This document shows positions 20,804 through 36,406 of a stretch of 64,000 nucleotides of DNA, piece by piece (position 1 is the stretch's first letter; each line of letters starts with the position of its first letter). Made by a program: the position numbers and the translations under genes. The stretch is taken from assembly GCA_022041995.1 (NCBI GenBank), contig CP074381.1:248001-312000 (forward strand). The letters are read 5' to 3'. Under the pieces are notes generated by a model. That model was not told the origin of the DNA, did not search any database, and saw nothing but the letters and a program-made list of their open reading frames with translations. Source of the stretch: Cupriavidus necator. GTDB lineage: Bacteria > Pseudomonadota > Gammaproteobacteria > Burkholderiales > Burkholderiaceae.

Positions 20804-21412
20804 ATGATCCGTCGTCCCCTGCTTTCCAGCCTGGCTGCCGCCCTGACCCTTGCGGCGGCCAGCACCGTCCTGCTGCCGGCACCCGCGCGCGCCGCCGACA
20901 AGCCCGCCGCGGCGCCTGCCGCGGGCGCCTGCCCCGCCTCGCTCAACTTTACCTTCCCGCGCCTGCAGGACGATGCACCGCAGAACCTGTGCCAGTACGC
21001 CGGCAAGGTGGTGCTGGTGGTCAATACCGCCAGCTATTGCGGCTTCACGCCGCAGTACGAGGGGCTGGAGGCGCTGTACGCCAGGTACGGCGCGCGCGGG
21101 CTGGTGGTGCTGGGCTTCCCGTCCAATGACTTCTCGCAGGAACCCGGCTCGCAGAAAGAGATCGCGGACTTCTGCTACAACACCTACGGCGTCAAGTTCC
21201 CGATGCTCGGCAAGTCGCATGTGCGCGGCAGCGATGCCAACCCGATGTACGCGCTGCTGGCAAAGCAAACCGGCACCACGCCCAAGTGGAATTTCTACAA
21301 GTACCTGATCGGCCGCGACGGCCAGGTGGTGGCCAGCTACGGCAGCCGCACCAGGCCGGACGACAAGGAACTGGTGGCGAAGATCGAATCGCTGCTCGGC
21401 GCGCAGCGCTGA
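20804..21412 (+). CDS. Periplasmic glutathione peroxidase-like protein
   Basis: A 202-residue thiol peroxidase of the GPx family. An N-terminal signal peptide ends near ARAA (residue 31), so it is likely periplasmic. The peroxidatic cysteine is in NTASYCGFTPQY, followed by LGFPSNDFSQEPG and the Trp/Asn motif KWNFYKYLI that completes the catalytic tetrad. Bacterial homologues usually use thioredoxin-like donors. It is convergent with the GST gene, 26 bp apart. Confidence 0.92.
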   Translation: MIRRPLLSSLAAALTLAAASTVLLPAPARAADKPAAAPAAGACPASLNFTFPRLQDDAPQNLCQYAGKVVLVVNTASYCGFTPQYEGLEALYARYGARGLVVLGFPSNDFSQEPGSQKEIADFCYNTYGVKFPMLGKSHVRGSDANPMYALLAKQTGTTPKWNFYKYLIGRDGQVVASYGSRTRPDDKELVAKIESLLGAQR

Positions 21413-21438: not shown

Positions 21439-22065
21439 TCAGTCGCGCACCAGCCCTTCGGCCCGCATCGCTTCCTGCACCGCCGGCCGTGCCGCAACGC
21501 GCGACAGGTATTGCTGCAGCGCCGGGTAGTCGTTGAGCGGCAGCTTCAGGATACGGGCCCAGCCGACGATGGTGAAGCAGTACGCATCCGCCACCGTGAA
21601 CCTGTCGCCGGTCAGGTACTGGCGGGTTTGCAGGTGCTGGTCGAGCTCGGCAAAGCGCCGGTGCAGCCTGGCCTTGCACTCGTCCTGCGTGCTCTGTGCG
21701 GTTTCCTTGTGCCACAGCCACGGGCTGAAGACCTTGTGCAGCTCGGTTGAGACCAGCGTGATCCAGCCGGTGGCTTCCAGCCGCTCGCGCGTGCCGGCGG
21801 CGGGCAGCAGCGCGCGTTCGGGCACCATGTCCGCGATGTATTGCAGCAGCGATGCCGCCTCGGTATGGCGCGAGCCGTCGTCGAGCTGCAGCAGCGGCAC
21901 GTAGCCGCGCGGGTTGATGGTGTAGTAGTCGTCGGTGCCGTTTTCAGGCACGGCCAGCTTGTGGTGGTGCAGGTCGACCCTGGCCAGTGTGACCGGCAGG
22001 CCGGCTTCGCGCAGGGCGATATGGACGGCCATCGAGCAGACGCCGGGAGTGTAGTAGAGCTTCAT
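21439..22065 (-). CDS. Glutathione S-transferase
   Basis: A 208-residue GST with an N-terminal thioredoxin-like domain (MKLYYTPGVCSMAVHIALREAGL; cis-Pro loop GYVPLL) and a C-terminal helical domain with the N-capping motif LTGDRFTVADAYCF. The active-site region TPGVCSM matches beta-class bacterial GSTs, which use cysteine. It follows the catabolic operon on the same strand but is separated from it by a strong hairpin, so it is probably a separate unit. Confidence 0.92.
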   Translation of the reverse strand: MKLYYTPGVCSMAVHIALREAGLPVTLARVDLHHHKLAVPENGTDDYYTINPRGYVPLLQLDDGSRHTEAASLLQYIADMVPERALLPAAGTRERLEATGWITLVSTELHKVFSPWLWHKETAQSTQDECKARLHRRFAELDQHLQTRQYLTGDRFTVADAYCFTIVGWARILKLPLNDYPALQQYLSRVAARPAVQEAMRAEGLVRD

Positions 22066-22144
22066 TGCGATCCTGTGGTGGTTGCCTGGCCGCCACGCCA
22101 TGCGGCGGCTGTGCAGGCAGTCTAGGATCGCCCCCCTTTATGCA

Positions 22145-22174
22145 GCAATGCGCGTCCTTGCGGACGCGCATTGC
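22145..22174 (-). terminator. Strong hairpin ending the catabolic operon
   Basis: Perfect 13-bp arms, GCAATGCGCGTCC / GGACGCGCATTGC, with a 4-base loop, 38 bp after the stop of the racemase-like gene. Only a short AT stretch follows in the direction of transcription, so termination may depend on the stem more than on a U tract. Confidence 0.65.
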
Positions 22175-22212
22175 AGATTTGCACAGGGCTAAGTTTGCGC
22201 GCTCGCTTGCGC

Positions 22213-22950
22213 TCAGTTGAGCAGCTTTGCCAGCGCCGGCGGCAGGCCGGCGTTGGGCTTGCGCGGCGGCCGCGCGAAGCTGCCCTGCGTGGCGCTGCCG
22301 GGGCGCAGGGCCACCAGCGATTCGCAGTGCCGCACCGCGCTGGACACGCCATCCACCACCGGCACCGGGATGCGCCCTTGCAGCGAGCGCGCCAGTCCCG
22401 CCAGCGGCGCGCCGGCGACGATGATCACGTCGGCGCCGTCCTGCTCGATGGCCTGCAGCGCCAGTTGCTCCAGCCGCGCGGCATGGTCTTCCTGCACGCT
22501 GCCGATATCGCGCAGGGGCTCCTGCAGCGAGCGCACGCTGGCCAGCCGCGACGACAGGCCGTTGGCCGCCACGCATTCGCGGTACCACGCCTGGATGCGG
22601 TGCGAGATCGCGATGATGGAAAAGCGTTGCCCCAGCAGGCAGGCGCTGGCCAGCGCCGCTTCGGTCATGCCGACGACCGGGACGTCGAACAGCTCTTTCA
22701 GCCCGGCCAGGCCGGGGTCGCCGAACGCGGCGACCACCAGGCCGTCGAACTGGCCGGCGTGTTCCGCGGCGGCGCAGGCGGTGGCATAGCCGCCGACCAG
22801 CGCCTCGAAGCGCGTTTCGATATAGGCCACGCCGAAGGGCGCGGTGGCCATCTGCAGCGTGGTGGTGGCGGCCGCGGTGCGGCGCGCCTCCGCCTCGATC
22901 AGCGCCGTGACGGATTCGCTGATATTGGGATTGACGATCAGGAGTTTCAT
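22213..22950 (-). CDS. Asp/Glu/hydantoin racemase-fold protein lacking both catalytic cysteines
   Basis: A 245-residue protein of the Asp/Glu racemase superfamily, hydantoin/allantoin racemase branch (MKLLIVNPNISESVT start). Racemases of this branch use two cysteines, in ACF.D.GL and GCAGM contexts. Here the equivalent sites read VVAAFGDPGL (Ala75) and IIVAGAPLAG (about residues 176-185), so neither cysteine is present. It is unlikely to racemize by the known two-base mechanism and may be a lyase, hydrolase or binding protein. It is the last gene of the operon, 31 bp after the dihydropyrimidinase-like gene. Confidence 0.82.
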   Translation of the reverse strand: MKLLIVNPNISESVTALIEAEARRTAAATTTLQMATAPFGVAYIETRFEALVGGYATACAAAEHAGQFDGLVVAAFGDPGLAGLKELFDVPVVGMTEAALASACLLGQRFSIIAISHRIQAWYRECVAANGLSSRLASVRSLQEPLRDIGSVQEDHAARLEQLALQAIEQDGADVIIVAGAPLAGLARSLQGRIPVPVVDGVSSAVRHCESLVALRPGSATQGSFARPPRKPNAGLPPALAKLLN

Positions 22951-22981
22951 GTTCGGAATGGGTTGGCTGCAGGCGTGGCGA

Positions 22982-24412
22982 TCAGCCCAGCATCGGCGCG
23001 CCCGCCGGCAGGAACTGCCCGCGTCCGGCCTGGGGTTCCTGGTACTGGCCATCGCGCACCAGCATCTCGCCGCGCGAGAAGCAATGCACCGGCCAGCCGG
23101 TCACTTCGATGCCTTCGTACGGCGTGTAGTCCACCGCGTGGTGCAGCGCGCTGTTGCGGATCTGCACGCGCTTGTTCGGGTCCCACAGCACGATGTCTGC
23201 ATCCGCGCCGATGGCGATGGTGCCCTTGCGCGGATACAGGCCATACAGCCGCGCCGGCCGCCATGAGGTCAGCTCGACAAACTGGTGCAGCGACAGCTTG
23301 CCGCGTGCCACGCCGTCGAACAGCAGCGGCAGGCGCGTCTCGATGCCCGGCACGCCGTTGGGGATATGCTCGAACGAAGGCCGTTCGCCGCCCGGCTGCT
23401 TGCCTTGCGGGTCGTCATAGCGGAACGGTGCATGGTCTGACGAGAACACGCTGAACACGCCATTGGTCAGCGCGCGCCATACCGCGGCCTGGTTCTCCGG
23501 GTCGCGCGGCGGCGGGCTGCACACGCACTTGGCGCCTTCGTAGCCGTCGTCGCCGGGCAGGGCCATGTCGTCGGCGGTCAGGTACAGGTACTGCGGGCAG
23601 GTCTCGGCCAGGATCTGCAGCCCCCTGCCTTGTGCCCAGCGGATCTGCTCGATCGCTTCCTTGCCCGAGACATGCACGATCAGGATCGGCACGTCGACCA
23701 GTTCGGCAAAGGTGATGGCGCGGTGCGTGGCCTCGCGCTCCACCGCGGCGGGCCGTGCCAGGCCGTGGAAGCGCGGTGCGATGCGCCCTTCCCCGACCAG
23801 CTTGTCGGTCAGCCACGAGATGCAGTCGGCGTTCTCGGCATGCACCATCACCAGCGCGCCGTTCTGCTTGGCGACGTCGAGCACCGACAGCATCTCGCGG
23901 TCAGACAGCTTCAGGTCGTCGTAGGTCATATAGACCTTGAACGAGCTGTAGCCCTTGCGGATCAGCGTCGGCAGCTCATCGGCCAGCACTGCCGGCGTGG
24001 GGTCGGCCACGATCAGGTGGAAGGCGTAGTCGATCACCGCGCGGCCTTCCGCGCGGCGATGGTAGTCCGCCACGGCAGCCTTGAGCGATGCGCCCTTCTC
24101 CTGCGCGGCAAACGGGATCACAGTGGTGGTGCCGCCGCACACCGCGGCGCGCGTGCCCGTGAAGAAGTCGTCGGCCATGCGCAGGCCGTCGGGCATGGGC
24201 TGGTCGAGGTGGCAATGGCCGTCGACGCCGCCGGGCAGCGCCAGCAGGCCATCGGCATCGATCTCGCGCGCGCCGGGTGGTACCTCAGGCAGCGCGTGGC
24301 CGAGCGCGACGATCTGCCCGTTGCGCACGCCGATGTCGCAGCGGAAGCGGTCGGAGGCAGTGACCACGTCCGCGCGGCGGATCACCAGGTCAAGGCTGTC
24401 GTGAGCGGACAT
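22982..24412 (-). CDS. Dihydropyrimidinase/hydantoinase-family amidohydrolase
   Basis: A 476-residue cyclic amidohydrolase with a full binuclear metal site: HxH in GGVDGHCHLDQP, the carboxylated lysine in SSFKVYMTYDD, histidines in MVHAEN and IVHVSG, and the aspartate in FSSDHAP. Enzymes of this family open six- or five-membered cyclic ureides and imides. The start ATG at 24412 lies 4 bp after the stop of the upstream AMDase-like gene, so expression is coupled. The neighbours do not include a carbamoyl-amino-acid hydrolase, so a simple pyrimidine or hydantoin pathway is not obvious. Confidence 0.9.
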   Translation of the reverse strand: MSAHDSLDLVIRRADVVTASDRFRCDIGVRNGQIVALGHALPEVPPGAREIDADGLLALPGGVDGHCHLDQPMPDGLRMADDFFTGTRAAVCGGTTTVIPFAAQEKGASLKAAVADYHRRAEGRAVIDYAFHLIVADPTPAVLADELPTLIRKGYSSFKVYMTYDDLKLSDREMLSVLDVAKQNGALVMVHAENADCISWLTDKLVGEGRIAPRFHGLARPAAVEREATHRAITFAELVDVPILIVHVSGKEAIEQIRWAQGRGLQILAETCPQYLYLTADDMALPGDDGYEGAKCVCSPPPRDPENQAAVWRALTNGVFSVFSSDHAPFRYDDPQGKQPGGERPSFEHIPNGVPGIETRLPLLFDGVARGKLSLHQFVELTSWRPARLYGLYPRKGTIAIGADADIVLWDPNKRVQIRNSALHHAVDYTPYEGIEVTGWPVHCFSRGEMLVRDGQYQEPQAGRGQFLPAGAPMLG

Positions 24413-24416
24413 CGGC

Positions 24417-25145
24417 TTACTCCACTTCGCGGAACAGGCGGCCCCAGCCGCGCAGTTCGCGCGTATCGACGCCGCACAGGCGCAGCGACTTCCACACCAC
24501 GGTGGAGATGGTGTCGTACAGCGGAATGCCGGTTTCGGCTTCAAGTTCTTCGGCCAGGTGCGCGGCGCGCAGGTTGGTGCAGAAGGTGGTGATGGCCTGC
24601 GGCTGGTGCTGGGCCAGGCCGCGCACCATCTCGCGGATGGTGTCTTCCTCGACCTCGGCGAAGCTGTAGTTCACATGCAGGTCCAGGTGGCTTTCGGCCA
24701 CGCAGTGAAAGCCGCTGCGCTCATAGTTGGCGATGATGCGCTGCTGCACATCGTCCAGGTACGGCGTGGCCAGGCCGAAGTTGCGCGCGCCGGTCTTTTC
24801 CAGGATCTCGTTGAGCGCCAGCACCGAGGTGGTGGCCGGGATGCCGGTGGCTTCGGTGATCTGCTTGCACAGCGCTTCATCCTTGTCGAAGCCGAGCCAG
24901 CCGGAAGAGGTGCCGTTCCAGGCGATGACATCGACGCGCGCATCGGCCAGCAGGCTGGCGGCGGCCAGGATCTTGTCCAGGTTGAACTGGCCCAGGGCCT
25001 GGTCGCGCAGCGAGATCTCGGTCACGGTGAAGCGCGAGAAATGCGCGCTGACGTTGGGCAGGCCGGCAACCATCGCGCTGGTGATGGGTTCGAGCGCCGT
25101 GTTGGAAGACGGCGTCAGCATGCCGAGGCGGATTTGCTTGGTCAT
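24417..25145 (-). CDS. Arylmalonate decarboxylase-like protein (Asp/Glu racemase superfamily)
   Basis: A 242-residue protein. It is likely to be auto-annotated as maleate cis-trans isomerase or Asp/Glu racemase, but its active site resembles Bordetella arylmalonate decarboxylase. Residues 78-80 are Gly-Thr-Ser, the dioxyanion hole, where racemases and maleate isomerase carry the first cysteine. A single catalytic-type cysteine (Cys189, in TTFCTN) matches AMDase Cys188. LATPYLDDVQQR and the C-terminal GWGRLF also fit AMDase. A cofactor-free decarboxylation of a disubstituted malonate is the inference. It sits directly before the amidohydrolase gene. The start is the ATG at 25145. Confidence 0.8.
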   Translation of the reverse strand: MTKQIRLGMLTPSSNTALEPITSAMVAGLPNVSAHFSRFTVTEISLRDQALGQFNLDKILAAASLLADARVDVIAWNGTSSGWLGFDKDEALCKQITEATGIPATTSVLALNEILEKTGARNFGLATPYLDDVQQRIIANYERSGFHCVAESHLDLHVNYSFAEVEEDTIREMVRGLAQHQPQAITTFCTNLRAAHLAEELEAETGIPLYDTISTVVWKSLRLCGVDTRELRGWGRLFREVE

Positions 25146-25200
25146 TTCAGTCGTTCTCAGGAGTTGGGCGGGCGCCGTCTCATGGGCGGCGCCTCTGCGG

Positions 25201-26397
25201 TTATTGTTCGGGTTTGTCGTTGAAGGCGAGGGCGGTGCCGGGTACGCGCTGGCTGGCGCGCGCCAGTTCAAGTTCCTTCTGCAGTGCGGCCTGGCGCGCG
25301 GCATCCGGCCTGACGGACTTGCCGGCCTGGAGCGCGGGCAGTACGTATTCATTCACCATGCGGCGGTACAGGTCAAGGTACGCCGCGTCACGCAGGCCGC
25401 CTTGCGTGGACATGATGCTGTTCATCACGATCACCGCGTTCTGCTTCGGCAGCACGGTGATGAACTGGCCCTTGTAGCCCATCGCACTGAACTCGCGCTC
25501 GCTCTGCACGATGTTGTTGACCCAGCAGTAGAAACCATAGTCCTTCGCCGGACCCGCAGGCGTGATCATGCGTGCGACCCAAGAGGCCGGCACGATCTGC
25601 TGCCCGTTCCAGCGACCTTCGTTCAGCATCAGCATGCCGAGCTTGGCCATGTCGATGGACCGCAGCCGCAGGCCCCAGCCGCCCGATACCGCGCCCTTGC
25701 CGTCGGCGCCGTCCCAGCGGTAGTGGCTCATGCCGAGCGGGCCGAACAGGCGCGCCTTGGCGTACTGGTCTTCGGGCTGCCCGGCGGCCTGCGTGATGGT
25801 GGCGCCGACAAGCACGGGATTGACGTCGATATAGTCGAACTCGGCGCCGGCCTTGGTGCGCACGGCGGCGGTCGCCGCCACGCGCAGGCGGTCCGGCACG
25901 CCGTAGTAGAGCGTGTCGGTGCCTTCCACCAGCTTGTACGACAGGCCGCTGGACATCGACATCAGGTGGCGCAACTGGATCGCCTGCTTGTCTGCCAGCG
26001 CCGGGGCGAGGTCGGGGCGCGCTGCCGCCAGGCGCTGCGCGGGCGCGTCTTCGGCGCTCAGCTTGCCGTCGCCGACCAGCGTGCCGACCAGCAGGGCGCT
26101 GATGAACTTGGTGACGGAATACAGCTCGTGGTTGTAGTCGCGCGCCAGGCCGTCGCCGTAGCGCTCGAACACCAGCTTGCCGTCCTTGATGATGAGCAGG
26201 CTGCGTACGTCGAGCTTGTCGCGGCGGATCCATTCGGACAGTGCGACGAGTTTTGCCGAATCGACGCCGACGGCTTCGGGTTGGGCGGTCGGCAGTCCAT
26301 CACCGGCAGGTGCCGAGGGCGCTGCCGGCGCGGCGTGCGCCTGCGCTGCGCCCAGCACGAGCAAGGCTGCAGCCAGCATACGTGGGAAGCGGGTCAT
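25201..26397 (-). CDS. Secreted serine hydrolase, beta-lactamase class C-like
   Basis: A 398-residue protein with a signal peptide ending AQAHAAP and the serine beta-lactamase/transpeptidase fold. The nucleophile motif is S-V-T-K at residues 94-97 and the Tyr box is SGLSYK; a third element may be GYKGQ near the C terminus. Members include esterases, amidases and D-aminopeptidases. The start ATG at 26397 has GGAGGAG 10 bases upstream; the long upstream frame is not coding. As second gene of the catabolic operon it may process the substrate outside the inner membrane. Confidence 0.85.
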   Translation of the reverse strand: MTRFPRMLAAALLVLGAAQAHAAPAAPSAPAGDGLPTAQPEAVGVDSAKLVALSEWIRRDKLDVRSLLIIKDGKLVFERYGDGLARDYNHELYSVTKFISALLVGTLVGDGKLSAEDAPAQRLAAARPDLAPALADKQAIQLRHLMSMSSGLSYKLVEGTDTLYYGVPDRLRVAATAAVRTKAGAEFDYIDVNPVLVGATITQAAGQPEDQYAKARLFGPLGMSHYRWDGADGKGAVSGGWGLRLRSIDMAKLGMLMLNEGRWNGQQIVPASWVARMITPAGPAKDYGFYCWVNNIVQSEREFSAMGYKGQFITVLPKQNAVIVMNSIMSTQGGLRDAAYLDLYRRMVNEYVLPALQAGKSVRPDAARQAALQKELELARASQRVPGTALAFNDKPEQ

Positions 26398-26501
26398 GAC
26401 ATGTCTCCTCCACCGCTGCGCCGGTAGCGGCCGGCGCAGCGTGTGTGGTTTGCCTTGCATGAGGCAATGTTTGAGTGTGGGTCCTTGGGTGCCGCAGTGG
26501 A

Positions 26502-27800
26502 TCAGACCGGGATCTTGGTCTCGTAGTCGATCGCGGTGGAAGCGAACAACAGGCCCACGCCGGCGGCCGCGAAGAACATCAGCGCCAGGAAGTAGGAGCC
26601 CGTGGCCTGCACGATCAGGCCAACGATGATCGGCACGCTGATGCCGGCGATATTGCCGCCCAGGTTCATCAGGCCGCCCAGGAAGCCAATCTTGTTGCGG
26701 GTGGCCAGCATCGACGGCACGGACCAGAACAGGCCGCACCAGCGCAGGAAGAAGAGGGTGGAAGAGAGCAGCGCCACCACGGCCACTGCGTCGGTGACAT
26801 AGGCCACCGAAAAGATCGACACGGTGGCGACCACGGCCGCAATGCCGAACAGCGTGCGCATCACCACGTTGGGGCGGCCGCCGGCTTCCTTCCACTTGTC
26901 GGCGATCCAGCCGCCGACGAGTTCGCCGACGAAGCCGCTCATGAAAATGATGAAGCTTGCGCCGCCCATCGTCTTGAGGTCAAAGCCGCGGGCCTTGCTC
27001 AGGTAGGTCGGCATCCAGGTGAGCAGGCCGTAGAAGACGGCGTTGAAGCACATCCAGCTGATGGCCATGCACCACACCGAGCGGTACTTGAAGAAGTCGA
27101 GCGAACGGCCGGACAGGTTGGCCGGCTCGGCGCTGTGCTCGCGTGCTTGTGCTTCTTCGATGTGGCGCGCTTCGAGTTCATTGACGCCGCTGTGTTCGCG
27201 CGGCGAATTGCGGATGTACCACCAGGCCACGAAGCCGGCGAGCACGGTGCCGACGCCGGCTACCACGAACGACATGCGCCACGAGCCGAGCTCGCTGATC
27301 AGCCCGGCAATGATGAGCGAGCCGAGCGCTGCGCCCAGCGGCGCGCCGCCGTCAAGCAGCGTGGCGCCGCGACCGCGTTCGTTCTGCGTCATCCAGATGG
27401 CGTTGAGCTTGCCGCCGGCCGGGTAGATCGGCGCTTCGGAGGCGCCCAGCCCGAGCCGGGTGATCAGCAGCGAGGTGGCGTTGGTGCAGACCGCCGCGAT
27501 CGCCTGGAAGAAGCCCCAGAACACGGTGGCGCAGGCAATCACGATGCGCGGCTTGTACTTGTCGGCCAGCATGCCGCCCGGGATCTGCATGAAGGCGTAA
27601 GTCCAGAAGAAGGAGCTGAGGATCAGCCCCTGCATGGCGGGACTGAGGTCGAACTCCTTGGCGATCAGTGGCATGGCCACCGACAGCGAGGCGCGGTCAA
27701 TGTAATTGATCGCGACGAGGAACAGCATCATCAAAAAAATCTTCCAGCGCACCGAGGTCTTGGCCTCTGTGATCACTGTCGCCCGGCTTGTCGTCTCCAT
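26502..27800 (-). CDS. MFS transporter, anion:cation symporter (ACS) type
   Basis: A 432-residue transporter with 12 predicted helices. NYIDRASLSVAMPLI in TM1 and ADKYKPRIVIACATVFWG (motif A) are typical of the ACS family, which imports organic anions such as glucarate, phthalate or hydroxycinnamates with protons. The ATG at 27800 follows AGGAG by 8 bases. It is the first gene of the leftward operon, so uptake of the pathway's acidic substrate is likely. Confidence 0.9.
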   Translation of the reverse strand: METTSRATVITEAKTSVRWKIFLMMLFLVAINYIDRASLSVAMPLIAKEFDLSPAMQGLILSSFFWTYAFMQIPGGMLADKYKPRIVIACATVFWGFFQAIAAVCTNATSLLITRLGLGASEAPIYPAGGKLNAIWMTQNERGRGATLLDGGAPLGAALGSLIIAGLISELGSWRMSFVVAGVGTVLAGFVAWWYIRNSPREHSGVNELEARHIEEAQAREHSAEPANLSGRSLDFFKYRSVWCMAISWMCFNAVFYGLLTWMPTYLSKARGFDLKTMGGASFIIFMSGFVGELVGGWIADKWKEAGGRPNVVMRTLFGIAAVVATVSIFSVAYVTDAVAVVALLSSTLFFLRWCGLFWSVPSMLATRNKIGFLGGLMNLGGNIAGISVPIIVGLIVQATGSYFLALMFFAAAGVGLLFASTAIDYETKIPV

Positions 27801-27865
27801 GACGGCGTCTCCTGTTTTAGTCCTTGGGTGAGGCAGTTCTGTTGGCGTTCTGCGCAACAGGTCGG

Positions 27866-27894
27866 AGTATAGGATACGTAATCTGTAATTACAA
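27866..27894 (-). promoter_or_regulatory. Promoter of catabolic operon with palindromic operator
   Basis: On the minus strand TTGTAA (27889-27894) and TATACT (27866-27871) are spaced by exactly 17 bp, a near-consensus sigma-70 promoter about 65 bp before the MFS start. The palindrome GTAATTAC (27885-27892) overlaps the -35 element and is a good candidate for the GntR operator, the regulator being encoded divergently. Confidence 0.7.
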
Positions 27895-27988
27895 CGCGTG
27901 TAAGTCATTGATTTTGCTATATTGCACATGCACAATTTTGGTATGTGGTAGCCTTGTCGTGGTGCATTTCCCCATTCTGGTGACGTCT

Positions 27989-28735
27989 GTGACACAAACG
28001 CTTTCCCAAACCACGCGCCTGCGCACGCTCGGCATGTCGGCCGAAATCGCCGCCCGGTTGCGCACCATGATCGAAGAGGGCGAACTGCCGCCCGGCGCGA
28101 GGATCGATGAACGGGCCTTCTGCGAGACCTTCGATGTCTCCAAGACGCCGCTGCGCGAGGCGCTGAAGGTGCTGGTGTCCGAGGGGCTGGTGCTGCACCG
28201 GCAGTACATCGGCTACCGCGTGGCGCCGCTGGACCTGGACGAGTTGCGCGCCACCTTCGAGACCCTGCACGGCCTGGAGGCGCTGGCGGGCGAACTGGCC
28301 GCGCAGCGCCTGGGCGCGGCGGCCATGGCCAAGCTGGAGCGGCGCCACCTGGCCATGATCGATGCGCATGCCGCCGGCCGGCGCACCGACTATTTCCGCA
28401 TCAACCAGGAAATCCACCAGCTGATTATCGACGGCGCCGCCAACCCGGTGCTGGCCGGCGTCTATGCCGCGCTGATGAGCAAGGTGCACCGCGCACGCGG
28501 TGCGGCCAATGCCGATACCATCCGCTGGCAGGAGTCGCATGAGGAACACGAGGCCATCATGGCCGCACTGCGCGAACCGGGCCGGCCGCGCCTGGCGCAG
28601 GTGCTGCGCGCCCACTCGGAGAACACCGCCACGGAAGTCCTGAGCGTGGTGGCGCAGACCCTGGCCGAAGCCGGCGCAACCGGCGCAACCGGCGCATCTG
28701 GCGCATCTGGCGCCGCCCTCAAGAAATCCGCCTGA
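27989..28735 (+). CDS. GntR family (FCD) transcriptional regulator
   Basis: A ~248-residue regulator with an N-terminal winged helix (IDERAFCETFDVSKTPLREALKVL) and a C-terminal FCD ligand-binding domain (about residues 90-215, helical, with metal-binding histidines in the RINQEIHQLI and ESHEEHEAIM helices). The start is uncertain: GTG at 27989 or 27980 restores the expected helix before the HTH, while ATG at 28034 trims it. It is divergent from the transport-amidohydrolase operon and probably represses it. The tail has a 9-bp tandem repeat encoding GATGATGASGASGA. Confidence 0.85.
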   Translation: MTQTLSQTTRLRTLGMSAEIAARLRTMIEEGELPPGARIDERAFCETFDVSKTPLREALKVLVSEGLVLHRQYIGYRVAPLDLDELRATFETLHGLEALAGELAAQRLGAAAMAKLERRHLAMIDAHAAGRRTDYFRINQEIHQLIIDGAANPVLAGVYAALMSKVHRARGAANADTIRWQESHEEHEAIMAALREPGRPRLAQVLRAHSENTATEVLSVVAQTLAEAGATGATGASGASGAALKKSA

Positions 28736-28760
28736 ACAACCCCTGAAGACAACGACGACG

Positions 28761-29609
28761 ATGAAACTGGTTCGAGTAGGCAATCCCGGCGCCGAGCGCC
28801 CGGGCATGATCGATGCGCAAGGCCGCGTGCGCGACCTGTCCGGCGTGGTGGCCGATATCGGCGCGGCGCAGCTGGCGCCGGCGGCGCTGGCGCAGCTGGC
28901 GCAGGTGGACCCCGCGTCGCTCCCGGTGATCGAGGGCGCACGCTTTGGCGTGCCCTGGAGCGGAGTCGGCAAGATCGTGGCGATCGGCCTGAACTATGCC
29001 GACCACGCCGCCGAGGCCGGCATGCCGCTGCCGGCCGAGCCGATCGTGTTCCTGAAGGCCAACAGCTCGCTGAATGGTCCCAACGACGCGGTGATGCTGC
29101 CGTTCGGCTCGGAGAAGACCGACTGGGAAGTTGAGCTGGGCGTGGTCATCGGCAGCACCGCGCGCAATGTCTCGCGCGAAGCGGCGCTGAACCACGTGGC
29201 CGGCTACTGCGTGGTCAACGACGTGTCCGAGCGCGAATTCCAGATCGAGCGCGGCGGCACCTGGGACAAGGGCAAGGGCTGCGACACCTTCTGCCCGGCC
29301 GGCCCCTGGCTGGTGACGCGCGACGAAGTGCAGGACCCGCAGGCGCTGGGCCTGTGGCTGGAGGTCAATGGCGAGCGCGTGCAGAAGGGCAGCACCGCCA
29401 CCATGGTCTTCGACGTGGCCACCGTGGTCAGCTATGTCAGCCGCTTCATGACGCTGCTGCCGGGCGACCTGATCGCGACAGGCACGCCGCCGGGCGTGGG
29501 CATGGGCTTCAAGCCCCCGCGCTTCCTGAAGGCCGGCGACACCATGCGCCTGGGCGTGGACGGGCTGGGCGAGCAGACGCAGCAGGTGATGCCCTACGGC
29601 GAACGCTGA
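28761..29609 (+). CDS. Fumarylacetoacetate hydrolase-family protein
   Basis: A 282-residue FAH-family enzyme, a group that hydrolyses or decarboxylates beta-diketo and related acids. Metal-binding acids appear in the EKTDWEVELGVVIG block and DVSEREFQ; the conserved loop is GTPPGVGMG near the C terminus. It starts 25 bp after the GntR gene, so the two form an operon. It may act on the acid released by the neighbouring decarboxylase and amidohydrolase; that link is inferred from position only. Confidence 0.9.
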   Translation: MKLVRVGNPGAERPGMIDAQGRVRDLSGVVADIGAAQLAPAALAQLAQVDPASLPVIEGARFGVPWSGVGKIVAIGLNYADHAAEAGMPLPAEPIVFLKANSSLNGPNDAVMLPFGSEKTDWEVELGVVIGSTARNVSREAALNHVAGYCVVNDVSEREFQIERGGTWDKGKGCDTFCPAGPWLVTRDEVQDPQALGLWLEVNGERVQKGSTATMVFDVATVVSYVSRFMTLLPGDLIATGTPPGVGMGFKPPRFLKAGDTMRLGVDGLGEQTQQVMPYGER

Positions 29610-29627
29610 GGGCAGGGCAGTGGCAAC

Positions 29628-29649
29628 GCGTCACCCTCCGGGGTGACGC
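29628..29649 (+). terminator. Hairpin after the FAH-family gene
   Basis: GCGTCACC / GGTGACGC arms, extended by a C/G pair, around TCCG, 18 bp after the stop; no clear T run. Confidence 0.5.
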
Positions 29650-29703
29650 ATGCCGGCAGCGCTGCTGCGGGCAAAGACACCATCCCCAATGGTTCCCCAT
29701 CGA

Positions 29704-29743
29704 TACGCTTTCACACAAAGCGTTGGGTTTCCATACAAAGCGT
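29704..29743 (+). promoter_or_regulatory. Repeated AAAGCGT elements upstream of M20 gene
   Basis: ACAAAGCGT occurs at 29715-29723 and 29735-29743, exactly 20 bp (two helical turns) apart. An inverted copy, ACGCTTT, lies at 29705-29711. Such spacing suits a regulator binding on one face of the DNA; the AraC-type protein at 31144-32022 is one candidate. The elements lie about 135-175 bp before the M20 start. Confidence 0.45.
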
Positions 29744-29878
29744 ACGATTAGGGCAACAGTTCCGGTGCTGAAGCAGGCCCGATTACATGGTTTTACAGGA
29801 AATCGCACACTTGGCGTTTCGCTCGCGTTTTCTGCGTGAAATACTGGTTATACAGGTTTCGCCAGAGAGCAAAACACC

Positions 29879-31126
29879 ATGTCTGAGCACGCCCCCGAAA
29901 TCGAGTCCTACCTCGGCACCACCCTCACGGCGTCCCCCACGGCGCCACTCAAGCACCGGTACTGCGCGCTGGCCGACACCCTGGACAGCCGCGCTGAACT
30001 CGAAGTCATCCGGCGCAATATCCACCAGCATCCCGAATTAGCCTTCGACGAGGTCCGCACCTCGGGCCTGGTCGCCAGCCTGCTGGAGACGTGGGGCTAC
30101 ACGGTCACGCGCGGCGTGGGCGGCACCGGAGTGGTGGGCACCCTGCGCTGCGGGGACAGCGGGCACAGCGTGGGCATCCGCGCCGACATGGACGCCCTGC
30201 CGATCCACGAACGCACCGCGCTGCCATACGCCAGCGTCAATGCCGGCCGCATGCACGCCTGTGGCCACGACGGCCATACCGCGATGCTGCTCGGTGCGGC
30301 AAAACACCTGGCGCGCACGCGCAACTTTGACGGCACCGTGCACCTGATCTTCCAGCCGGCCGAGGAAATCGGCGCGGGCGGCGGCGCCGAGCGCATGCTG
30401 GCCGACGGGCTGTTCGAGCGCTTTCCCTGCGATGCGATCTTCGGGCTGCACAACCATCCGGGGGTGGAGCAGGGCAATTTCCTGTTCCGCTCGGGTCCCT
30501 TCATGGCGGCGTGCGACACGGTCACCATCACCATCCGCGGCAAGGGCGGCCACGCCGCGCGCCCGCACCAGTCGGTCGACCCCATCCTGGTGGCAGGCAG
30601 CCTGGTGATGGCGCTGCAGTCGGTGGTGGCGCGCTATGTCGACCCGAACGAGACCGCGGTGGTGACGATCGGCACGCTGCACGCCGGCCACGCGCCCAAT
30701 GTGATCCCGGACAATGCGCGCATGGAGATCAGCGTGCGCTCATTCAACCCCGAGGTGCGCGCATCGGTGGAGAACCGCATCCGCCAGCTGGCCACGTCGC
30801 ACGCCGAGGGCTACGGCGCGGTGGCCGAGGTCGACTATGTGCGCGGCTACCCCGTGCTGGTCAACAGCGAGCGCGAGACCGAGTTCGCGCGCCAGGTGGC
30901 CGAGGAGCTGGTCGGCCCCGGCAAGGTGGTGGACCAGGCCGCGCGCATCGCCGGCAGCGAGGACTTTGCCTACTTTCTGCAGCAGCGCCCGGGCTGCTTC
31001 GTGCGGCTGGGCAACGGTGCCAACCAGCCGCTGCTGCACAACGCCGGCTACGACTTCAACGACGAGAACCTGACCGTCGGCGCGGCCTACTGGACGCGGC
31101 TGGTGGAGCGATACCTGGCGCGCTGA
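29879..31126 (+). CDS. M20 family amidohydrolase (hippurate hydrolase-like)
   Basis: A 415-residue M20D metallo-amidohydrolase. Metal ligands are visible in GIRADMDALPI, HACGHDGHTAML, FQPAEEIGAGGG, LHNHPG and, near the end, GSEDFAYFLQQRPG. The lid-domain pattern GKGGHAARPHQSVDPI is also present. Relatives cleave N-acyl amino acids, hippurate or indole-acetyl conjugates. It has its own ~270-bp upstream region with repeated elements, so it may be regulated separately from the FAH gene. Confidence 0.92.
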   Translation: MSEHAPEIESYLGTTLTASPTAPLKHRYCALADTLDSRAELEVIRRNIHQHPELAFDEVRTSGLVASLLETWGYTVTRGVGGTGVVGTLRCGDSGHSVGIRADMDALPIHERTALPYASVNAGRMHACGHDGHTAMLLGAAKHLARTRNFDGTVHLIFQPAEEIGAGGGAERMLADGLFERFPCDAIFGLHNHPGVEQGNFLFRSGPFMAACDTVTITIRGKGGHAARPHQSVDPILVAGSLVMALQSVVARYVDPNETAVVTIGTLHAGHAPNVIPDNARMEISVRSFNPEVRASVENRIRQLATSHAEGYGAVAEVDYVRGYPVLVNSERETEFARQVAEELVGPGKVVDQAARIAGSEDFAYFLQQRPGCFVRLGNGANQPLLHNAGYDFNDENLTVGAAYWTRLVERYLAR

Positions 31127-35006: not shown

Positions 35007-35315
35007 ATGGCGGGCATGGAGTCTGCCGTGCCCCCGTCCCCGCCCCCCGTCCAACCTGTGCCGGCACCGTCTGCCACGCCCGCCACGCCTGCCTGCGAGC
35101 GCTGCCTGGCGCTCGCCGCCGACCCGCGCCGGCGCGAGCCGCCGTCCTGCCTGGCGCTGCGCGGCACGGTGCCGTTGGTGAGCCAGAGCGCCGCCGGCGT
35201 GCCGTTCAGCATGCTGACCTTTGCCTGCCGCGACTGCGGCACGGTATGGCGGCTGTATGACAGGGCCAACGAACTCTTTGTCTCGTGGGTGCCGGAACGC
35301 CCGCTGGTGCGCTGA
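35007..35315 (+). CDS. Small hypothetical protein with two CxxC motifs
   Basis: A 102-residue protein (97 if the second ATG, three codons on, is used). The first ~30 residues are Pro/Ala-rich; then CERC and, 40 residues later, CRDCGTVWRLYD suggest a zinc ribbon. I do not recognise a family. No ribosome binding site stands out. It is co-directional with the Bug receptor gene that follows 107 bp later. Confidence 0.6.
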   Translation: MAGMESAVPPSPPPVQPVPAPSATPATPACERCLALAADPRRREPPSCLALRGTVPLVSQSAAGVPFSMLTFACRDCGTVWRLYDRANELFVSWVPERPLVR

Positions 35316-35422
35316 CAGCGCGCACGTCCCGATCGGCTAAGATAGCGGCTGCCATGCGCCAGACCGGCAATCCGCTGCCGCTCCCGGCGCCCTCCTGTCG
35401 CAGTCTCTCCCGCATTTCCATC

Positions 35423-36406
35423 ATGGCCTTCCCCTTCCGCTCATCCGTGCTGGCCGCCTTGTGCGTGACCAGCGGTGCTGCCGCACTGCCTGCCGCCGCT
35501 GCCGACGCCTATCCCAGCCGTCCGATCCGCCTGATCGTCGCCTACCCGACCGGCGGCATCAGCGACACCGTGGCGCGCGCGCTCGGCGAGCGGCTGTCGG
35601 CGCAGATGGGCACCTCGGTGGTGGTCGAGAACAAGGCCGGCGCGGGCGGCAGCATCGGCATCGACGCGGTCGCCAAGGCTGCGCCTGACGGCTATACGCT
35701 GGGCTTTGCCGCCACCAGCCCGCTGACGCTCAACCCGCATGTCGGCCGCGTCAACTACGACCCGCAGAAAGACGTGGCGCCGGTGATGAGCGTGATGTAC
35801 TCGCCGGTGCTGGTGGTGGCCACCTCCGGCTTCAGCGGCAAGAGCTTTGCCGATATGGTCGGCCAGGCCAGCGCCAAACCGGGCTCGGTGCGCTGGGCAA
35901 CGTCGGGCCTGGGCACGGTCGGCCATGTGGTGCTGGAACAGATCAAGCAGAAGTCGAAGGCCGATATCACGCTGATCCCATACAAGGGCGCGGGCCAGCA
36001 GATGAACGACGCGCTCGGCGGCCAGTTCGAGGTGATGAGCACCAATGCCAGCCCGGTGCTGACCCAGCATATGCAGGCCGGCCGCCTGCGCGCGCTGGCG
36101 GTGGGTGCGCCCAGGCGCCTGGAGAGCCTGCCCTCGGTGCCGACACTGGCCGAGCTGGGCTACCCCAAGGCCAACCTGACCTCGACCTTCGGCATTTTCG
36201 CGCCGGGCAAAACGCCCGCGGCCATCATCAGCCGCCTGAACGCCGAACTGAACAAGGCGCTGGCCGAGCCGGAAGTCCATGAGCGCCTGCTCAAGGGCGG
36301 CGAGGTGCCGACCGGCGGCACGCCGGCGCAGTTTGCCAAGGCCATCCGCGACGAGTCCGCGGAGAACGCCCGCATCGTCAGGGAAGCGGACATCAAGGCC
36401 GATTGA
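35423..36406 (+). CDS. Tripartite tricarboxylate transporter (Bug) substrate-binding protein
   Basis: A 327-residue periplasmic receptor of the Bug family, greatly expanded in Bordetella and Cupriavidus. The signal peptide ends AAAADAYPSRPI, followed by the family blocks RLIVAYPTGGISDTVARALGE, VVENKAGAGGSIGIDAVAKA and LIPYKGAGQQMNDALGGQ. No TctA or TctB genes are nearby, so it is an orphan receptor. Ligands are usually small carboxylates. Confidence 0.92.
   Translation: MAFPFRSSVLAALCVTSGAAALPAAAADAYPSRPIRLIVAYPTGGISDTVARALGERLSAQMGTSVVVENKAGAGGSIGIDAVAKAAPDGYTLGFAATSPLTLNPHVGRVNYDPQKDVAPVMSVMYSPVLVVATSGFSGKSFADMVGQASAKPGSVRWATSGLGTVGHVVLEQIKQKSKADITLIPYKGAGQQMNDALGGQFEVMSTNASPVLTQHMQAGRLRALAVGAPRRLESLPSVPTLAELGYPKANLTSTFGIFAPGKTPAAIISRLNAELNKALAEPEVHERLLKGGEVPTGGTPAQFAKAIRDESAENARIVREADIKAD

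Follow-up and report, generated by a model that had tools for sequence, protein, structure and literature searches.

The window analysed here, 64,000 nucleotides of the Cupriavidus necator genome (assembly GCA_022041995.1, contig CP074381.1, positions 248,001 to 312,000), contains at positions 21439-31126 a gene set whose parts are of known kinds, and for the operon or the combination of its enzymes no description was found in the literature searched by titles, abstract beginnings and passages, most subscription journals lying outside that scope. Judged by their residues, two of the encoded proteins appear to belong to branches that do not fit the mechanisms of their nearest families: AMD, a member of the AMDase/maleate isomerase clade, and RAC, which has the fold of allantoin and hydantoin racemases. 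A third, HYD, is a D-hydantoinase/dihydropyrimidinase. These three genes are repeatedly linked to an MFS transporter gene and a divergent GntR regulator gene. We tentatively favour, at rather less than even confidence, the interpretation that they form a catabolic operon under GntR control, its substrate being an acidic cyclic ureide or imide originating from an N-heterocycle (nucleobase-, pteridine- or barbiturate-like).

Gene linkage and the divergent promoter

Linkage was tallied with AMD as bait in 60 titled loci that passed a peptide-pattern filter, by tblastn matches of at least 45% identity within the flank; MFS was counted on the same strand within 4 kb of AMD, and GntR in divergent orientation within 5 kb. 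HYD is linked to AMD at 45 of these loci, MFS at 40, RAC at 38 and GntR at 35, and all five genes are present at 28 loci from Cupriavidus, Ralstonia, Pandoraea, Caballeronia and unnamed Burkholderiaceae. HYD stands beside AMD in metagenome-assembled genomes and 11 named genera (Cupriavidus, Ralstonia, Advenella, Pandoraea, Aromatoleum, Caballeronia, Pseudorhodoferax, Castellaniella, Variovorax, Telmatospirillum and Rhizobium); it was not near AMD at the four Burkholderia loci and one Paraburkholderia locus of the titled set. Every RAC-bearing titled locus (38/38) also carries HYD. At 31 further, hand-picked loci (L097-L112 and L125-L139, which partly repeat titled genomes, L108 being L067 in the intergenic region), HYD is near AMD at 22 and accompanies RAC at 13 of 14.

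Other genes of the interval are found near AMD less often: FAH at 27 of the 60 loci (five copies at 46-59% identity), M20 and AraC at 18 each, the serine hydrolase at 16 and GST at 15. The M20 loci are Cupriavidus in 17 cases, the other being Burkholderiaceae bacterium 16, with M20 also near AMD at four of the further loci (L097, L098, L100 with 67% identity and L109 with 44%), and 14 of the 15 GST loci are Cupriavidus. M20, AraC and GST are mostly Cupriavidus flank genes and FAH is partly linked; FAH and M20 were rejected as core members on these counts. The strongest indication that the genes form a functional cassette is that the core stays constant while its flanks vary. As 27 of the 60 loci come from Cupriavidus, the counts are not independent; several loci are short (L034, L069, L085, L088, L089, L092), which makes gene absences there weak, and the gene strings of some loci were produced with a simple GC3-based gene caller, which overlooks some genes. 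As to distribution, AMD has a match at E<=1e-10 in 157 of 299 sampled genomes of the host's family, with identities of 59-100% in a large group, of 34% or less in many others and of 39% in one that keeps the subfamily motif (L104); across the phylum, the subfamily is found at E<=1e-40 in 17 of 398 sampled genomes.

The divergent genes share a conserved promoter region. Among 45 intergenic regions (44 distinct, the window included) between divergent GntR (at least 50%) and MFS (at least 60%) genes less than 900 bp apart, 39 agree with the 31-position sequence GTTGTAATTACAGATTACGTATCCTATACTC at 28-31 positions and six (L070, L100, L101 twice, L103, L109) agree at 20-25, compared with a best score of 19/31 in 900 shuffled regions. 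It reads as a -35 element TTGTAA, a 17-bp spacer and a -10 element TATACT; the palindrome TGTAATTACA, exact in 38 of the 45 regions, overlaps the -35 element, and a second conserved block, AAATCAAtgAcTTAC, lies approximately 20 bp upstream. The palindrome is presumably the GntR operator, through which GntR would repress the MFS operon and regulate its own expression. Taken by itself, the promoter consensus is about as frequent as chance predicts (1 site against 0.8 expected), so the case for the promoter rests on conservation; the 18-bp core alone is no proof either, since at up to two mismatches it matches 11 of 150 genomes of the order and its reversed control matches in five. At up to three mismatches, the 18-bp core has a single site in the window and in the 9.6-Mb genome, and a regulon extending beyond the operon was therefore rejected; the same scan of window and genome gave no operator copy at M20. 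A tandem arrangement occurs in L101 (4264-15651), where two GntR-MFS-AMD units accompany two serine hydrolase genes and the promoter sites are divergent, at 25 and 21 of 31 positions.

The conservation data and the one operator site speak for two units, GntR(-FAH) and MFS-serine hydrolase-AMD-HYD-RAC. The sequence-only reading had described eight genes as one divergent regulon; that description holds for these two units and fails for M20, which lies 269 bp beyond FAH and has no operator. It had also proposed a survey of the five leftward genes for co-occurrence, in which MFS, AMD, HYD and RAC proved to be linked together with GntR and the serine hydrolase proved optional; among the rightward genes, the result was mixed for FAH and negative for M20.

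AMD and RAC as branches of the Asp/Glu racemase superfamily

AMD scores below the curated cut-offs for both AMDase (NF052327, 73.8 versus 225 bits) and EutA (TIGR02990, 71.3 versus 318 bits). Its structure, predicted from 24 sequences (pLDDT 92.7), is most similar to maleate isomerase (2xec; Z 32.5, 1.7 Å, 236 residues aligned), followed by AMDase (3ixl; Z 30.4, 1.9 Å, 230 residues aligned), with Z 18.4 for allantoin racemase; for the AMD and RAC models, the structural comparison covered the chains that Foldseek ranked. Alignment with L114, whose protein alone exceeds the AMDase cut-off among 200 genomes of the order, and with the NicE-like proteins of the host reveals a hybrid pattern: PSSN, HxSR and an Asn near position 159 as in maleate isomerase, and Gly-Thr-Ser with a single Cys as in AMDase. 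Residues P12, S13, S14, N15, H35, R38, G78, T79, P128, Y129, N159, C189, T190 and N191 are invariant in the 24 aligned sequences, and the same pattern recurs at all 31 further loci, down to 38% identity; Ser80 is replaced by Ala in a few orthologues, including those of L137 and L139.

AMD resembles AMDase (EC 4.1.1.76) in fold, in the Gly-Thr-Ser that replaces the first Cys, and in its equivalents of Tyr126 and Cys188: criteria 2, 3 and 10 in the part of PMC4996985 that lists them (G74, T75, S76, Y126 and a single C188) correspond to G78, T79, S80, Y129 and C189. AMDase M159 aligns with the similar residue Phe162, and the region of the hydrophobic pocket residues L40, V43 and Y48, where AMD has the invariant H35 and R38, aligns poorly with the AMDase homologue. 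With maleate cis-trans isomerase (NicE/Iso), AMD shares the closest fold and the PSSNT, HxSR, PY and Asn residues, which bind carboxylates in that enzyme; it differs in lacking the first, nucleophilic Cys, in place of which all 24 aligned sequences and all 31 further loci have Gly78. As a passage of PMC12576825 describes, one Cys of maleate isomerase attacks maleate at C2, and proton handling falls to the second. Because the first is missing and the second is kept, AMD should not isomerise its substrate in that manner and could protonate a carbanion. By its residues, AMD is apparently neither an AMDase nor a maleate isomerase, and decarboxylation would be the simplest reaction that fits them; since Val156 of the AMDase pocket is Asn in AMD, another enolate-forming reaction is possible.

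It is somewhat unlikely that AMD instead isomerises, tautomerises or cleaves a maleate-like half-amide or dicarboxylate, in a pathway that ends like nicotinate degradation. The rank of 2xec ahead of 3ixl, the identity of the PSSN, HxSR and Asn motifs with those of the two NicE-like proteins of the host, and the presence of amidases at several AMD loci would agree with such a role; the replacement by glycine of the residue that attacks maleate, and the fact that the host already has two NicE-like proteins, argue against it. These two maleate-isomerase-like proteins (named by reading), encoded elsewhere in the genome, are 25% and 28% identical to AMD, and the identification of AMD as the NicE of the host was rejected. 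A search with EutA returned no match in 100 genomes, 14 controls included, and is thus uninformative on presence. A NicE-like gene belongs to a cluster (L095:1523-12764, host genome, C2) that by reading also encodes a flavin monooxygenase/oxidoreductase, a cupin dioxygenase, an FAH protein, a nitrilase, an SDR protein and a second monooxygenase-like protein, and that looks like an unusual nitrile/gentisate-like set.

The model of RAC (pLDDT 92.4) fits allantoin racemase over its full length (5lg5; Z 33.2, 1.6 Å, 234 residues aligned), and RAC shares the GDPG motif of allantoin and hydantoin racemases (AllR, HpxA, HyuE); it differs from them in that Ala75 and Gly180 replace both catalytic cysteines. 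The sequence-only reading had called this protein cysteine-less, which is accurate for the catalytic positions and inaccurate for the rest of the chain, as cysteines occur at 59, 104, 126 and 209. Passages of PMC12661438 give Cys79/Cys184 as the catalytic pair of KpAllR, report loss of activity in Cys mutants of OpaE, and describe the pair as conserved across the superfamily. Among 47 homologues of RAC (at least 30% identity over 80% of the length, from L033-L112), 45 have Ala and two have Val at position 75, all have Gly at position 180, and the pair is absent throughout. RAC, having neither cysteine, would be unable to use the two-cysteine racemase mechanism. Eight genes of the locus are under purifying selection (median dN/dS 0.11-0.18), and this, with the conservation of the branch, indicates that RAC is not a decaying copy.

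HYD passes the cut-offs of NF009941 (PRK13404; 753.1 versus 647) and the D-hydantoinase model TIGR02033 (524.4 versus 393.25), and falls short of AllB (TIGR03178; 248.7 versus 357.85). The HxH, K, H, H and D motifs, which form the metal site, are all in place, in line with the complete active site read from the sequence. M20 scores far below the allantoate amidohydrolase cut-offs, and on these family scores the canonical allantoin pathway was rejected. A variant route for an allantoin-like ureide might be imagined, by parallel with OHCU decarboxylase and ureidoglycolate chemistry: AMD would first remove the carboxyl group of a 5-carboxylated ring, RAC would convert the product to its other configuration, and HYD would carry out the ring opening, with FAH and M20 in the roles of ureidoglycolate lyase and allantoate amidohydrolase. 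The allantoin racemase fold of RAC (Z 33), the relatedness of HYD to allantoinases even below the cut-off, and polysaccharide-deacetylase genes near AMD in Castellaniella and Variovorax are compatible with it, but we regard it as quite improbable, given the loss of both catalytic cysteines from RAC, the scores of HYD and M20 against AllB and the allantoate amidohydrolases, and the position of FAH and M20 outside the conserved core.

A putative ring-opening pathway and the evidence for and against it

Gene content, linkage, the conservation of promoter and palindrome and the residue patterns are observed, and the folds are models; the substrate, the direction and order of the steps, the regulation and the chemistry of AMD and RAC are what we infer. 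In the catabolic operon that we propose, GntR would sit on the palindrome inside the promoter and block transcription when substrate is lacking, and an intermediate would release it. MFS would bring the compound into the cell, and HYD, to judge from its family, would hydrolyse a ring amide. AMD would then act on a carboxylate-rich substrate held by Asn, His, Arg and Tyr residues of the maleate isomerase type; having no nucleophilic Cys and retaining the acid Cys189, it would most likely form an enediolate, by loss of carbon dioxide from a malonate-like acid, and protonate it from one face. RAC would use the substrate or the product of HYD, and the serine hydrolase and FAH might contribute optional steps before and after.

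Parts of this scheme have counterparts in known systems. Hydantoinase genes with a nearby hydantoin racemase gene are described in a passage of PMC3546935, and HYD passes the cut-offs of that family; the core differs from hyu clusters in having AMD and MFS instead of an N-carbamoylase. The oxidative pyrimidine (barbiturate) pathway, as outlined in part of PMC3758960, likewise involves an oxidized ring, ring opening and a malonate-type product, but barbiturase (PF09663, AtzD family) has no match in the host genome at E<=1e-20, and HYD would be a non-homologous ring opener. Of 15 genomes with AMD that were searched, five gave a PF09663 match, none of them belonging to the class of the host, and the canonical barbiturase route was dropped on the host result. 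For AMDase, the section of PMC4996985 on gene neighbourhoods lists TTT, TRAP and ABC transporters and MR/MLE genes, and does not name hydantoinase.

The neighbours of AMD in distant genomes, whose names come partly from reading only and in some cases are backed by profile or structure matches, provide clues to the substrate. In Burkholderia and Paraburkholderia they include a xanthine-type NCS2 permease, UbiD, a UbiX-like flavoprotein, CobW and a PRK12393-type amidohydrolase (802.6 versus a cut-off of 543 bits) whose best solved relative is 2paj (E 2.5e-141), annotated as 'putative cytosine/guanine deaminase' and presumably an isoxanthopterin deaminase. Subunits of Mo-hydroxylases are encoded within 7 kb of AMD at L128, where an amidase accompanies them, and at L137, where a deaminase-like amidohydrolase does; at L133 an NCS1 permease gene adjoins HYD in convergent orientation. 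Elsewhere, NMT1-type ABC and TRAP systems, HyuA/HyuB and TRZ/ATZ-like amidohydrolases are recognized by reading, the amidohydrolase of L074 having a TRZ/ATZ model as its best match below the cut-off (228.9 of 540); the polysaccharide-deacetylase genes mentioned above (Pfam-checked for L076 only) are presumably PuuE-type. The permeases, deaminase-like amidohydrolases, Mo-hydroxylases and amidases support a substrate of N-heterocycle origin. Together with the family scores of HYD, these neighbours support, as plausible, the earlier suggestion of uptake and ring opening of a cyclic imide or ureide, and they would also fit a barbiturate, leaving the compound unfixed.

Two of these neighbourhoods have further genes. 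The Burkholderia/Paraburkholderia type (L079, L081-L084, L102, L111, L112) also contains LysR and amidohydrolase_2 genes, not every gene being called everywhere, and looks like an undescribed N-heterocycle carboxylate route. In L085, L086 and L092, the genes that follow AMD-HYD read as oxoprolinase-type genes like HyuB and HyuA and as a gene resembling class III aminotransferases.

Several observations weigh against the proposed operon function. Decarboxylation by AMDase is driven by a hydrophobic pocket, according to a passage of PMC12576825, and V156 of that pocket aligns with Asn159 of AMD, invariant in the 24 sequences; Gly189 and the motifs LMGTSLSF and ILLSCGGL, given for AMDase in part of PMC4996985, are not found either, AMD having Thr190 within TTFCTNL. 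The absence of V156, G189 and SCGG means that decarboxylation by AMD is not secured, so that of the AMDase-like decarboxylation of a substituted malonate suggested earlier, the Gly/Cys arrangement stands, and the profile score, the pocket and the closest fold, that of maleate isomerase, speak otherwise. No N-carbamoyl hydrolase gene belongs to the core. HYD is missing from the flank of AMD at 15 of the 60 titled and nine of the 31 further loci, and is thus not always needed; at L134, RAC occurs without HYD within the flank covered. At L128, AMD is separated from the Mo-hydroxylase/amidase genes by a gene on the minus strand. Pairwise distances correlate with those of AMD for HYD (0.88), RAC (0.92), FAH (0.88), M20 (0.80) and MFS (0.63); as the coefficients of flank genes are about as high as those of the core, they are no evidence for a shared pathway, and this line of proof was dropped. 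Finally, among 15 close genomes searched, orthologues of HYD and RAC occur only in the host and G261, and the other 13 have only HYD2 (70-71%) and RAC2 (51-53%), which all 15 carry elsewhere in the genome.

Some of these data could mean that two modules merely share a promoter, with GntR-MFS-AMD(-FAH) serving an organic acid and HYD-RAC another compound. Eight titled Cupriavidus loci (L033-L038, L056, L072) have neither HYD nor RAC beside AMD and all retain MFS; the host has a cluster of MFS, HYD2, an amidase and RAC2 without AMD; and HYD and RAC are not singled out by the distance correlations. We nevertheless consider such a division unlikely, because the proximity of AMD and HYD is kept in taxa with quite different transporters and regulators. 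The AMD-free cluster (L093:8107-14242; C1, approximately 3438600-3444740) also contains a GntR gene; its MFS is of a different type by reading, its amidase belongs to PF01425, HYD2 is 70% identical to HYD, and RAC2 is 53% identical to RAC with the same Ala/Gly replacement.

Gene parts of the locus and significance

Family assignments were checked against NCBIfam and Pfam (Table 1), which confirmed the proteins named by the sequence-only reading at their places and in their families; its inventory had omitted the GstA-type glutathione transferase. From left to right, the interval carries on the minus strand GST, RAC, HYD, AMD, the serine hydrolase and MFS, and on the plus strand GntR, FAH and M20, after which comes a minus-strand AraC gene. 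From MFS to RAC, the gaps in the leftward group are 104, 55, 4 and 31 bp. RAC and GST are separated by 147 bp that include a strong hairpin, possibly the end of the transcript, and GST behind it is probably a flank gene rather than part of the core. FAH follows GntR after 25 bp; the model for 2,4-didehydro-3-deoxy-L-rhamnonate hydrolase (NF053535) gives it 452.6 against a cut-off of 500. The MFS transporter, which the sequence-only reading had labelled an ACS importer, scores best with the galactonate-transporter subfamily model, below its cut-off. The serine hydrolase has Lsa45 (8dc1, E 3.5e-54) as its nearest solved structure and an N-terminus that reads like a signal peptide, and is probably secreted and accessory to the operon. 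Outside the interval, a glutathione peroxidase-like gene (20804-21412) lies immediately to the left and a gene for a TctC-type binding protein (35285-36406) to the right, both named by reading.

Table 1. Features of the locus in left-to-right order, with positions in the window
Feature	Positions	Strand	Supporting data
GST, GstA-type glutathione transferase	21439..22065	-	NF007831 219.2 bits, cut-off 198
Hairpin between RAC and GST, 13-bp perfect; possible transcript end	22145..22174	-	-27 kcal/mol, z -6.23, 0/200 shuffles as stable; no T-run
RAC, allantoin/hydantoin-racemase-fold protein	22213..22950	-	PF01177 137.7 bits; Ala75/Gly180 at both catalytic Cys positions
HYD, D-hydantoinase/dihydropyrimidinase, PRK13404 subfamily	22982..24412	-	NCBIfam cut-offs passed
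AMD, AMDase/maleate-isomerase-clade protein, own subfamily	24417..25145	-	PSSN..H..R..W-GTS..PY..N..CTN; one of two catalytic Cys (C189)
Serine hydrolase, class-C-beta-lactamase-like, SVTK	25201..26397	-	PF00144 93.2 bits
MFS transporter	26502..27800	-	PF07690 183.5 bits; best NCBIfam TIGR00893 (galactonate-transporter subfamily) 250.7, below cut-off 395
Leftward-operon promoter with palindrome TGTAATTACA, presumed GntR operator	27866..27894	-	TTGTAA-17-TATACT
GntR (FCD) regulator, divergent	27980..28735	+	PF00392, PF07729; start uncertain, GTG 27980 or 27989
FAH-family enzyme, semi-linked	28761..29609	+	PF01557 247 bits
M20 amidohydrolase, flank gene	29879..31126	+	TIGR01891 375.7, cut-off 153.75

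A broader interpretation, which we consider possible but doubtful, is that the AMD clade constitutes a new cofactor-free family, related to maleate isomerase but with one cysteine and a polar pocket, whose reaction is the decarboxylation or cleavage of ring-opened N-heterocycles. RAC would represent a new activity on a racemase fold from which both catalytic cysteines have been lost, and the two, together with HYD, would make up a ring-opening pathway, so far undescribed, that handles nucleobase- or pteridine-like compounds across Pseudomonadota. The natural substrate of AMDase itself is still to be identified, as stated in a passage of PMC4996985, and the locus offers a well-delimited context in which two branches of the Asp/Glu racemase superfamily that lack an assignment can be tested; in one of these, the cysteine pair that a passage of PMC12661438 extends to the whole superfamily is found in none of 47 homologues. 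Identifying the substrate would provide a further catabolic route for N-heterocycles, as well as a regulator and promoter pair that could be tested as a sensor.

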